From Cryobacterium suzukii (lineage in GTDB: Bacteria > Actinomycetota > Actinomycetes > Actinomycetales > Microbacteriaceae): a stretch of DNA of 64,000 nucleotides. Location of the stretch: positions 124,001 to 188,000 of the forward strand of contig NZ_SOHJ01000003.1 of NCBI RefSeq assembly GCF_004403185.1. The letters run 5' to 3'. Each line of letters opens with the position of its first letter. Positions within the stretch are counted from its first letter, which is position 1. The position numbers and the translations under genes are program-made. Under the pieces are notes generated by a model. That model had not been told where the DNA came from. It searched no databases and saw nothing but the letters and a program-made list of their open reading frames with translations. Below are positions 15,900 through 18,777 of this stretch, piece by piece.

Positions 15900-16484
15900 A
15901 TGACCGAAACGACAACCACCCCAACTGCAGCGGATGCCCTCGGGCTCATTTTCGCCGAGAACAGCCACGTCGTCGACGCGCTGCGGTCTGCATCCGCTTC
16001 ATCGCTCGACGAGGCGGTCACCGTGCTCGCTGCGGCGCCCCGTGTATTCGTACTGGGTGCCGGTCGCTCCGGCCTCGCGCTGAAGATGACCGCTATGCGG
16101 CTGATGCATCTCGGACTCGACGTGCACGTTGTCGGCGAGGTGACCAGCCCGGCGATCGCTTCTGGCGACCTGTTGCTGGTTGCCAGTGGTTCCGGGACGA
16201 CGGGCGCCATTGTGCGAGCCGCCGAGACGGCCCACAGCGTGGGCGCGAACATTATCGCACTCACCACGGCTCCCGAGTCGCCGCTCGGGCGGCTCGCTGC
16301 GGTGACCGTGGTCATTCCGGCCGCGACCAAGCAGGACCATGCCGGACAGGTGTCGGCGCAGTATTCGGGCGGTCTGTTCGAGCAAGCAGTGCTGCTCGTC
16401 GGCGACGCCCTGTTTCACACGCTCTGGCAATTGAGCGGCGCCACGGCCGAACAGCTCTGGCCGCGTCACGCCAACCTCGAATAA
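15900..16484 (+). CDS. hxlB: 6-phospho-3-hexuloisomerase
   Basis: A 194-aa SIS-domain protein (GAGRSGLALKMTAMRLMHLG, LLVASGSGTTGAIV), the usual length for the enzyme that converts D-arabino-3-hexulose 6-phosphate to fructose 6-phosphate. This is the second step of the ribulose-monophosphate route of formaldehyde fixation or detoxification. It is followed after 58 nt by hxlA, the gene for the first step, so the two form an operon. ATG 15900 is preceded by AAGGAG/GGAG (15880-15890). The tandem repeat and the divergent LuxR-fusion regulator suggest induced expression. Cytoplasmic. Confidence 0.92.
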   Translation: MTETTTTPTAADALGLIFAENSHVVDALRSASASSLDEAVTVLAAAPRVFVLGAGRSGLALKMTAMRLMHLGLDVHVVGEVTSPAIASGDLLLVASGSGTTGAIVRAAETAHSVGANIIALTTAPESPLGRLAAVTVVIPAATKQDHAGQVSAQYSGGLFEQAVLLVGDALFHTLWQLSGATAEQLWPRHANLE

Positions 16485-16542
16485 GGCGCGCACCTTTTCC
16501 AAGAACTTTCCACTCTTCATCACCAACAGAAAGCAGAACCCC

Positions 16543-17166
16543 ATGAAGCTCCAGGTAGCAATGGACGTATTGACCACCGAAGCGGCGCTCACGCTGGCCG
16601 CTCAGGTCGCCCCCCACGTCGACATCATCGAGCTCGGCACCCCGTTGATCAAGGCAGAGGGCCTGCGCGCCGTCACCGCGATCAAGGCTGCGCACCCCGA
16701 CAAGATCGTCTTCGCCGACCTCAAGACGATGGATGCCGGCGAGCTCGAAGCCGACATCGCCTTCGCCGCCGGCGCCGACCTCGTGACCGTGCTCGGCACG
16801 GCTGGTGACAGCACCATCATCGGTGCCGTCGCCGCCGCGACCAAGCACGGCAAGGGCATCGTCGTCGACCTCATCGGCGTTGCCGACAAGGTCACCCGCG
16901 CCCGCGAGGTCACCGCGCTCGGCGCCCAGTTCGTGGAGATGCACGCCGGACTCGACGAGCAGGCCGAGCCCGGCTTCTCGCTGGCAACACTGCTCAACCA
17001 GGGCGAGACCGCCAAGGTTCCCTTCTCCCTCGCGGGCGGCGTGAACCTGTCGACCATCTCCTCCGTGCAGCGCGCCGGAGCAACGGTCGCCGTTGCCGGC
17101 GGAGCAATCTACGGCGCCGAGGACCCGGCAGCTGCCGCTGCCGCCCTGCGCGCCGCGATCATCTAG
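16543..17166 (+). CDS. hxlA: 3-hexulose-6-phosphate synthase
   Basis: A 207-aa TIM barrel of the orotidine-monophosphate-decarboxylase suprafamily. The N-terminus MKLQVAMDVLTT, the motif VFADLKTMDAGELEAD carrying the conserved Asp-x-Lys-x-x-Asp metal and catalytic set, and HAGLDEQ are characteristic. It joins formaldehyde to ribulose 5-phosphate to give 3-hexulose 6-phosphate. 3-Keto-L-gulonate-6-phosphate decarboxylase is a close relative, but the linked hexuloisomerase supports the present call. Purine-rich AAAGCAG precedes the ATG. A hairpin terminator follows 18 nt after the stop. Confidence 0.92.
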   Translation: MKLQVAMDVLTTEAALTLAAQVAPHVDIIELGTPLIKAEGLRAVTAIKAAHPDKIVFADLKTMDAGELEADIAFAAGADLVTVLGTAGDSTIIGAVAAATKHGKGIVVDLIGVADKVTRAREVTALGAQFVEMHAGLDEQAEPGFSLATLLNQGETAKVPFSLAGGVNLSTISSVQRAGATVAVAGGAIYGAEDPAAAAAALRAAII

Positions 17167-17184
17167 TCTCAGCGTTTGATCTGG

Positions 17185-17210
17185 TGCCGTCCCGCTTCTG
17201 CGGGGCGGCA
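17185..17210 (+). terminator. Hairpin terminator of the hxlBA operon
   Basis: TGCCGTCCCGC (17185-17195) and GCGGGGCGGCA (17200-17210) pair at 10 of 11 positions around a TTCT loop. The hairpin starts 18 nt past the hxlA stop and is followed by a short T-rich run. Confidence 0.6.
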
Positions 17211-17237
17211 CTGTTGCGTTAAGCGGATGTCCGCGAA

Positions 17238-17313
17238 CCGGACGGGGCCCGGGCCCCGTCCACGGGCCCAGTCTATAAACTGGGCCCGTGGATCGGGCCC
17301 GGGCCCCGTCCGG
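17238..17313. repeat. Large nested hairpin upstream of the FAD oxidoreductase
   Basis: Arms 17238-17272 and 17279-17313 (35 bp, two mismatches) flank a 6-nt loop CTATAA. The outer part of the left arm (17240-17261) is itself a perfect 22-bp palindrome, so the DNA or RNA could also fold as a cloverleaf. The right arm ends inside the GGAGGAG ribosome-binding site (17312-17318) and could mask it. It may be a mobile palindrome or a translational control element. Confidence 0.75.
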
Positions 17314-17329
17314 AGGAGAGGACGCCACC

Positions 17330-17350
17330 ATGACGAGCTGCCACGCATGA
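17330..17350 (+). CDS. Six-codon leader cistron
   Basis: ATG ACG AGC TGC CAC GCA TGA encodes MTSCHA. The strong GGAGGAGAGG site lies 8-10 nt upstream of this ATG, whereas the next ATG (17347) has no site of its own but overlaps the TGA. The arrangement suggests that ribosomes initiate here and re-initiate on the oxidoreductase gene. Inferred from spacing only. Confidence 0.4.
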   Translation: MTSCHA

Positions 17351-18777
17351 GCCGCACGATTTTCGACCGAGCCCGGCCCGCAGCATCCGTCGTCGCCGAT
17401 TCGTTCGTCGATACCCGGCAGGGCTCCTTCTGGCTCGATGACCTCGCTCCGCGCGCGAACTATCCCCGCCTCTCGGGCAACCTCAACTGCGACCTCGCAA
17501 TCGTCGGCGGCGGCTACCTGGGCCTGTGGAGCGCGGTGCTGGCCAAGCAGCAGAATCCGGCGGCGCGAGTGGTGCTGCTGGAGGCGCGCACGGTGGGCTG
17601 GGCAGCATCCGGCCGCAACGGTGGTTTCTGCGAGGCGAGTCTCACCCACGGTCAAGAGAACGGGCGCCGCCGTTGGCCGCAGGAGATCGACCGGCTGACC
17701 GAGCTCGGCCAGGAAAATCTCGACGAGATTGAGCGGGCCGTGGCGAGCCTCGGCCTCGACTGCGATTTCGAACGCACCGGCGCCATCGACCTCGCCGTCG
17801 AGGAGCACCAGGTTCAGTGGCTGTGCGAAGAAGACACTGATGACAACACCGTCTTTCTCGATGCGGCGGCCGTGCAGGCCGAGGTGGCCTCGCCGACCTA
17901 CCTGGCCGGGGTGTGGCATCGGCGCAGCAACGCCCTCGTGCATCCGGGCAAGCTCGCCGCCGAGCTCGCCCGGGTGGCCACCGGGCTCGGCGTCGAGATC
18001 TTCGAGCACTCGCTCGTGCAGAACATCGACACGACCGGACTAACCGCGGCGCAAGGCACCCGAATCGTGACGGCGGGCGGCACCGTAACCGCTCGCAAGA
18101 CGGCGCTCGCCACGAACGTCTTCCCCTCGCTACTCAAGCGCAACAAACTCGCAACCGTGCCGGTCTACGACTACGTGCTCATGACCGAACCGCTCCACAA
18201 CGACCAACTCGCCGCGATCGGCTGGCAGAACCGGCAGGGCCTCAGTGACCTGGCCAATCAGTTTCACTACTACCGGCTGAGCGCCGACAACCGCATTCTG
18301 TTCGGCGGCTACGACGCCGTCTATCACTATGGGCGCAGAGTGCGCAGCGGCTATGAGAACCGACCCGAAAGCTTTGAAAAGCTCGCGAGTCACTTCTTCA
18401 CGACCTTTCCGCAGCTGGCCGGGGTGCGCTTCAGCCACAAATGGGCCGGTGCCATCGACACCTCGACCCGGTTTTGCGCCTTTTTCGGGCAGGCTCGAGG
18501 CGGACGCATCAGCTACGCCGCCGGATTCACCGGCCTCGGCGTTGGCGCCACGCACTTCGCGGCCCAGGTCATGCTCGACCAGCTGGCCGGCCGCAGCACG
18601 GAACGCACTGAACTGGCCATGGTGCGGGGCCGTCCACTTTCGTTCCCGCCGGAGCCGATCGCATTCGTTGGAATTCAGGCCACCCGGTGGGCGCTGGACC
18701 GTGCCGACCACAACCGCGGCAAGCGCAACGCCCTACTCAGGAGCCTCGACGCGCTGGGTCTCGGCTTCGACTCCTAG
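17347..18777 (+). CDS. FAD-dependent oxidoreductase (DAO / amine oxidase type)
   Basis: A 476-aa protein with an N-terminal Rossmann FAD motif DLAIVGGGYLGLWSAVLAK and GRNGGF, typical of the glycine/D-amino-acid oxidase fold and especially of PuuB-like gamma-glutamylputrescine oxidases. C-terminal GFTGLGVGATHFAAQ is the FAD-closing motif. I chose ATG 17347, since upstream in-frame sequence runs through the hairpin. Expression is probably coupled to the leader cistron and may be modulated by the hairpin. It follows the formaldehyde-fixing operon; a demethylating oxidase that releases formaldehyde would make sense there, but the substrate is not identifiable from sequence. Confidence 0.85.
   Translation: MSRTIFDRARPAASVVADSFVDTRQGSFWLDDLAPRANYPRLSGNLNCDLAIVGGGYLGLWSAVLAKQQNPAARVVLLEARTVGWAASGRNGGFCEASLTHGQENGRRRWPQEIDRLTELGQENLDEIERAVASLGLDCDFERTGAIDLAVEEHQVQWLCEEDTDDNTVFLDAAAVQAEVASPTYLAGVWHRRSNALVHPGKLAAELARVATGLGVEIFEHSLVQNIDTTGLTAAQGTRIVTAGGTVTARKTALATNVFPSLLKRNKLATVPVYDYVLMTEPLHNDQLAAIGWQNRQGLSDLANQFHYYRLSADNRILFGGYDAVYHYGRRVRSGYENRPESFEKLASHFFTTFPQLAGVRFSHKWAGAIDTSTRFCAFFGQARGGRISYAAGFTGLGVGATHFAAQVMLDQLAGRSTERTELAMVRGRPLSFPPEPIAFVGIQATRWALDRADHNRGKRNALLRSLDALGLGFDS

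Follow-up and report, generated by a model that had tools for sequence, protein, structure and literature searches.

REP elements of the GTAG and CGTC superfamilies are dispersed extragenic palindromes of 20–40 bp that lie mostly between tandem or convergent genes, and the CGTC type seems to have no dedicated transposase, according to the part of PMC3733652 considered here; the usual number is more than 100 per genome (PMC2817692, in part). The Correia repeat enclosed elements of Neisseria are small inverted-repeat elements that are able to generate a promoter for a neighbouring gene, and they are described with insertion duplications and a parental transposase (PMC2649163, in part). At the level of translation, termination-reinitiation couples cistrons of the same strand through an overlapping stop and start, such as ATGA (PMC6728339, in part).

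The palindrome described here lies between hxlA and an oxidoreductase gene of Cryobacterium suzukii, and it is one copy of a dispersed family of REP-like palindromes in one cold-loving Cryobacterium lineage. The finding is mostly of a known kind, that of REP-like repeats, in a variant for which no prior description was found in the literature searched, which included part of one Cryobacterium genome paper. Similar to the REP elements of PMC3733652, as far as that source was considered, the Cryobacterium repeat is found near 3' ends, between tandem and convergent genes. It shares with REP/RAYT systems the many extragenic palindromic copies (at least 43, which is below the usual REP number) and the rarity of divergent placements (0/40 in its own genome). 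The repeat is longer, about 70–76 bp, and is built from the adjacent palindromes A (22 bp) and B (24 bp) followed by a second A or by a half-site C. Reading of the 43 copies revealed no tetranucleotide of the GTAG or CGTC kind that is constant and unpaired outside the palindromes, and the CGTC that is present lies inside the stem. The host, Cryobacterium, differs as well, and the word 'actinobacter' is missing from the main text of PMC3733652. The likeness to the Correia elements is one of description, and insertion duplications and a parental transposase are features on the Correia side.

The palindrome and its neighbourhood

The window, i.e., the whole stretch of 64,000 nucleotides that was analysed, contains the following features around the palindrome:

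15900–16484, + strand: hxlB, 6-phospho-3-hexuloisomerase (match above cut-off)
16543–17166, + strand: hxlA, 3-hexulose-6-phosphate synthase (match above cut-off)
17183–17212, + strand: GC-rich hairpin 3' of hxlA, probable native 3' end of hxlBA (sequence kept in 11 of 12 printed orthologous spacers)
17238–17313, no strand: REP-like palindromic repeat element of the A-B-A form (inverted repeat, fold, genome copies)
17240–17261, no strand: unit A, 22-bp perfect palindrome GGACGGGGCCCGGGCCCCGTCC (palindrome analysis)
17264–17287, no strand: unit B, 24-bp near-perfect palindrome GGGCCCAGTCTATAAACTGGGCCC (palindrome, and covariation of flanking pairs in 43 copies)
17276–17281, + strand: TAAACT, candidate replacement -10 (hexamer seen, promoter role putative)
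17290–17311, no strand: second unit A, with two mismatches
17312–17322, + strand: ribosome-binding site GGAGGAGAGGA (GAGAGGA part common to close orthologues)
17330–17350, + strand: six-codon upstream ORF MTSCHA (TGA overlaps the next ATG)
17347–18777, + strand: FAD-dependent oxidoreductase of the DAO family, 476 aa (family match)

The two arms of the inverted repeat (17238–17275 and 17276–17313) are 38 nt long, 92% complementary and not separated by any spacer. The predicted RNA fold of the palindrome has 34 pairs and an energy of -89.2 kcal/mol vs -50.2 +/- 3.9 for 200 shuffled sequences (z -10.1, no shuffle as low), so the hairpin proposed in the sequence-only reading is real. Its architecture comprises a perfect 22-bp A, a near-perfect 24-bp B centred on TATA and another A that carries two mismatches; neither component palindrome was matched elsewhere in the window when up to 3 mismatches were allowed (100 shuffles also gave 0 matches). 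That the palindrome is a product of chance or of assembly has a practically negligible probability, given a fold z-score of -10 and the occupation of the same site in the relatives G019 (98% identical), G009 and G031, which already refutes this reading (G-numbers denote genomes of relatives, and G000 is the window species). An Rfam scan of 16500–18000 returned 34 listed matches, most of them microRNA hairpins, and none reached the gathering score. A search of 16900–17420 for an intrinsic terminator, consisting of a GC hairpin and a U run, gave 0 terminator-like sites.

Downstream of the palindrome follow GGAGGAGAGGACG, the MTSCHA ORF (codons ATG ACG AGC TGC CAC GCA TGA) and the oxidoreductase, whose ATG at 17347 overlaps the stop of the ORF. 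The strong ribosome-binding site described in the earlier reading is borne out by GGAGGAGAGG, which starts at 17312, and the six-codon cistron with its ATGA overlap is confirmed at 17330–17350. The reported overlap between the hairpin and the start of the ribosome-binding site is present, with an extent of only two bases, the last two of the hairpin (GG). The best NCBIfam match of the oxidoreductase is the aminophosphonate oxidoreductase model, far below its cut-off.

A dispersed repeat family in Cryobacterium

A search of the own genome with the hairpin gave 86 matches with both strands counted, corresponding to at least 43 places; 43 copies is a lower bound, with 40 of the 74 first candidates scored and the places read on the DNA around the matches. 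Among these copies, 12 have the A-B-A form and 31 the A-B-C form in either orientation; C stands for a half-site whose end reads GGTGGGCCC or similar. Among 60 genomes of relatives, the own genome included, the repeat was found in 12, all of which belong to the 37 Cryobacterium genomes (0/23 in the others). An even sample of the family gave the repeat in 4 of 299 genomes and 1 of 85 genera; these four are 4 of the 6 Cryobacterium genomes listed, and the other 84 genera gave none. The exact unit-B pattern gave at least 80 rows in the collection of named genomes, all matches listed being from Cryobacterium, and it was not found in viral contigs.

Paired copies with starts approximately 113–153 bp apart were observed at three loci (L193 2484–2700, L185 741–926 and L176 3751–3971), and such pairs resemble composite repeat clusters. 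Different palindromic repeats near gene ends seem to be present elsewhere in the genus: GCGGGTGAATCGTCGG with an inverted copy occurs at two genes of G067 (L246, L217), and sequences around GACGGAGATTTT or a variant occur in G025 (L223), G032 (L251) and G024 (L049).

Placement and structure of the copies

According to a simple purpose-written gene predictor, the 43 own-genome copies comprise 20 in convergent, 20 in tandem and none in divergent spacers, with one more inside a predicted gene and two at a contig end. Nearly all copies with genes on both sides (40/41) are outside predicted genes. The chance of finding 0/40 in divergent spacers is 2.7e-7 by the length of non-element spacers, of which 32% is divergent, and 1.4e-4 by spacer number, with the divergent-spacer background drawn from loci chosen around the copies. 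Outside the own genome, a spacer predicted as divergent does hold a copy in at least one case, at a locus of another species. In the asymmetric copies, the A end faces a gene 3' end in 25 of the 29 away from contig ends (one of which is the copy inside a predicted gene), at a median of 14 nt from the stop, and the C end does so in 18 of the 29, farther away. TAG stops account for 28/52 of the stops beside copies vs 59/154 elsewhere (Fisher p 0.053).

The structure appears to be kept next to unit B. Across the 43 own-genome copies, which occupy different sites, two variable pairs flanking B covary: the first pair is Watson-Crick in 26/43 copies vs 18.7 expected (31/2000 shuffles as high), and the second in 23/43 vs 13.9 expected (2/2000 shuffles as high). 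The same two pairs stand out in 142 genus-wide copies, orthologues included. Farther out, pairing in these 142 copies does not exceed what shuffles give and in part falls below it. We attribute this to the coexistence of A-B-A, A-B-C and C-B-A forms; the result speaks against one long conserved hairpin.

The repeat is thus placed at gene 3' ends in its own genome. Because it usually lies a short distance 3' of stop codons, transcription would turn it into a strong hairpin near the 3' end of the mRNA, where its most likely role is to terminate or to protect the transcript. The window copy is atypical, being located 72 nt 3' of the hxlA stop and beyond another hairpin.

Slots and subfamilies

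Two genes with a repeat slot at their 3' end, labelled from sequence, were followed across the genus; we take them to encode a glutathione peroxidase-like protein and glyceraldehyde-3-phosphate dehydrogenase. The slots were read by eye at 30 orthologous loci per gene, with gene matches in 55/57 and 57/57 genomes. The reading also revealed a second subfamily, characterised by TTTCCGGGCCCGGGCCCGGAAA and a B unit of the GATC type, some of whose copies are partial at the first slot. Among the 17 closest genomes, the glutathione peroxidase-like slot holds subfamily 1 in five (one truncated), subfamily 2 in six, diverged remnants in two and neither in four. The glyceraldehyde-3-phosphate dehydrogenase slot holds subfamily 1 in seven (two of them as a single A unit), subfamily 2 in five, a diverged form in one and neither in four. 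In G013 and in G014, the two slots are occupied by different subfamilies. With a subfamily-2 query, 18/57 genus genomes were detected, namely the same 17 and, more weakly, G072. Homologous sites were also compared for empty sites and for the target-site duplications expected of a MITE. Most of the sites listed hold an element, the loci having been chosen for carrying one, and the flanks have diverged too far between species for empty sites to be read cleanly.

The RAYT transposase profile (Y1_Tnp, PF01797) gave 0/57 in the genus genomes and was positive in 5/14 control genomes, which sets the repeat apart from GTAG-type REP/RAYT systems. A fuller scenario, in which RAYT-less composite palindromes of one Cryobacterium lineage occupy fixed 3'-end slots with a subfamily that differs among species, and in which the window copy was turned into a promoter after deletion of the native one, may be entertained but seems improbable when taken as a whole; it would imply a mobilising or gene-converting activity.

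Loss of the -10 block upstream of the oxidoreductase

The oxidoreductase search detected 48/57 genus genomes, many with only distant paralogues; an orthologue with at least 80% identity is present in 25 genomes, while in G031 only part of the gene is matched. Twelve close spacers were printed whole. They show hxlA and its GC-rich hairpin, then palindrome remnants, a full element or neither, and in 9 of the 12 a TAGGCT block (TAGCCT in G031), GAGAGGA and the gene. The hxlA hairpin (17183–17212) is identical in sequence in 11 of the 12, G078 being the exception; it has no U run and a z-score of -5.3. In the spacer of G078 (L035), tandem repeats of the GGACGTGTACGTGTGC type were observed between the palindromes and the -10 block.

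TAGGCT is found at -58 to -77 in 12 of 15 close orthologues, counted from the start of the oxidoreductase match, which in G036 and G074 lies a few bases inside the gene. G031 has TAGCCT, and G000 and G019 have neither. In 252 flanks of divergent spacers, taken from the own genome as well as from further Cryobacterium loci with orthologous spacers included, TAGGCT occurs 21 times vs 5.3 in shuffles (one occurrence lies within a copy of the repeat). Enrichment was also seen for TAGCCT and TAGAGT; TAGGCT is likely a -10 element in Cryobacterium. The -10 block is confined to the close group, as no hexamer resembling TAGGCT was seen in the 130 nt ahead of twelve more distant orthologues; the match of G077 begins at residue 36, which put its upstream region outside this reading.

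The -10 block has been lost in G000 and G019, which share one junction between the repeat and the ribosome-binding site. In G009 and G031, which are near the window species, the repeat occupies the corresponding position and the -10 block is intact. GAGAGGA is at the same place in the 13 other close orthologues read upstream, and among these a hairpin abuts it only in G019. In a tree of 25 orthologues, which left out G031, G018 and G077, the genomes G000, G019 and G009 form a clade with 100/100 support, and G000 and G019 are grouped in 40% of bootstrap trees only.

The oxidoreductase has been kept under purifying selection. Among ten genomes, those with other gene lengths being left out, the G000-G019 pair has a dN/dS of 0.150. 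The 45 other pairs span this value (mean 0.112, range 0.060–0.181), which indicates that the gene stayed useful after the loss of its -10. The G031 gene is broken, with a match over 138 aa in a frame of 189 aa. At that locus (L056) the -10 reads TAGCCT and the leader start ACG, consistent with joint decay.

The six-codon leader

In 5 of the 15 close orthologues, the gene is preceded by an ORF of six codons whose stop overlaps the gene start as ATGA or GTGA; the peptides are MTSCHA (G000), MASRHT (G019), MTSRHA (G009), MTSSHA (G034) and MKNSHA (G074). The conservation check in relatives therefore upheld the layout and not the peptide, which is poorly conserved: Cys occurs in the window peptide alone, and a single His is the sole residue after Met common to all five. 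In the leader-less close orthologues, G031 apart, the gene starts approximately 10–15 nt after GAGAGG. The leader-bearing genes occupy two places in the tree, G000/G019/G009 and G034/G074, and the repeat model detected no copy in G034 and G074, where only GGGCCC remnants are present.

The sequence-only reading had joined hairpin and leader into a dedicated translational switch, in which stalling at, or starvation for, Cys or His would alter access to the oxidoreductase start. The very stable hairpin, the good ribosome-binding site with its ATGA overlap and a layout kept in five species speak for such a switch, and yet we consider it very improbable. The same hairpin is repeated at the 3' ends of unrelated genes, and the leaders of G034 and G074 occur with no detected copy, so that a role of the hairpin as a dedicated leader structure is not supported. 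An amino-acid attenuator has several conserved codons for one residue followed by competing hairpins, and the attenuator lies 3' of its leader peptide. The five peptides compared have no such run. With the hairpin located 5' of the ORF, stalling of a ribosome on the leader could not influence it in the way known from classical attenuation. Amino-acid attenuation is therefore unlikely, and control by Cys or His starvation and a purpose-built amino-acid sensor are not supported. Polycysteine leader ORFs were reportedly described in mycobacteria by Canestrari in 2020. They too are short ORFs ahead of an actinobacterial gene, but the window has one non-conserved Cys, no Cys run and an upstream hairpin. 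The predicted accessibility of the ribosome-binding site and the start sites varies with the transcript start and shows no clear change in access.

The suggestion of reinitiation fares better. The overlap kept in five species and the ACG at the leader start of the broken G031 gene make coupling by reinitiation plausible. All five leader-bearing genes have the overlapping stop and start together with an SD for the upstream cistron. The window resembles the systems of PMC6728339, in the part considered, in its same-strand ATGA overlap, and differs from them in an upstream cistron of only six codons. The six-codon ORF is best seen as a separate feature of part of the genus; its simplest function, and a probable one, would be to couple translation by termination-reinitiation.

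Transcription of the oxidoreductase

The comparison of spacers suggests the following order of events. An ancestral copy of the repeat would have been located in the hxlA-oxidoreductase spacer, upstream of the oxidoreductase's own -10, with hxlA ending in its own 3' hairpin. In the lineage of the window species and one close relative, the -10 would later have been deleted, which brought the repeat directly up to the native ribosome-binding site. Since the gene stayed functional, it needs either the central TATAAACT of the repeat or read-through from hxlA, and the oxidoreductase may now depend on one of these. We regard as the best explanation, and as a fairly probable one, the combination of a lineage-specific 3'-end repeat, a deletion of the -10, a gene relying on TATAAACT or on read-through, and the leader as a separate coupling feature.

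Which of the two sources serves the gene can be weighed from the spacers. If the loop were captured as a promoter, its TATAAACT would act as a new -10 with a start near 17288, and the mRNA would contain the right half of the hairpin only, as a start at TAAACT leaves the full hairpin out of the transcript. TAAACT (17276–17281, at -71 in the palindrome loop) is the only TAnnnT hexamer in the hxlA-oxidoreductase spacer of the window; G019 has the same TAAACT at -71 and one other TAnnnT at -181, so that in both genomes it is the sole such hexamer near the gene. The native -10 sits at a similar distance, -72 to -77, in G009, G034, G074 and G031. However, the hexamer is weak and has no -35, and neither it nor TATAAA is clearly enriched upstream of genes (5 vs 3.6 and 3 vs 2.9, respectively). 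By our own rough estimate, such a placement would arise by chance in approximately 5% of cases, and 40 own-genome copies avoid divergent spacers. A consensus scan of 16900–17420 gave no sigma-70-type promoter and no U-tailed terminator, which says little because shuffles yield only 0.1 and 0.2, respectively. Promoter capture is on balance a possibility that we would put at somewhat below even.

Alternatively, hxlBA transcripts may continue past the hairpin of hxlA and through the palindrome as far as the oxidoreductase, in which case the repeat would act as an intercistronic REP that attenuates or protects the mRNA. The location of the genes on the same strand, the missing native -10 and the continued constraint on the oxidoreductase speak for such an operon. 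On the other hand, the GC-rich hairpin of hxlA, kept in 11/12 printed spacers, probably ends the transcript though it lacks a U run, and the -10 block of the relatives suggests that transcription was ancestrally separate. We give read-through as the source of expression a chance similar to that of promoter capture, likewise below even.

Implications

The analysis shifts attention from an appealing leader-peptide account to a family of dispersed repeats. The window locus offers a clean case of how a gene keeps working after a promoter deletion next to a repeat, and the family as a whole lends itself to testing how short palindromes can spread, and persist at gene ends, without RAYT.
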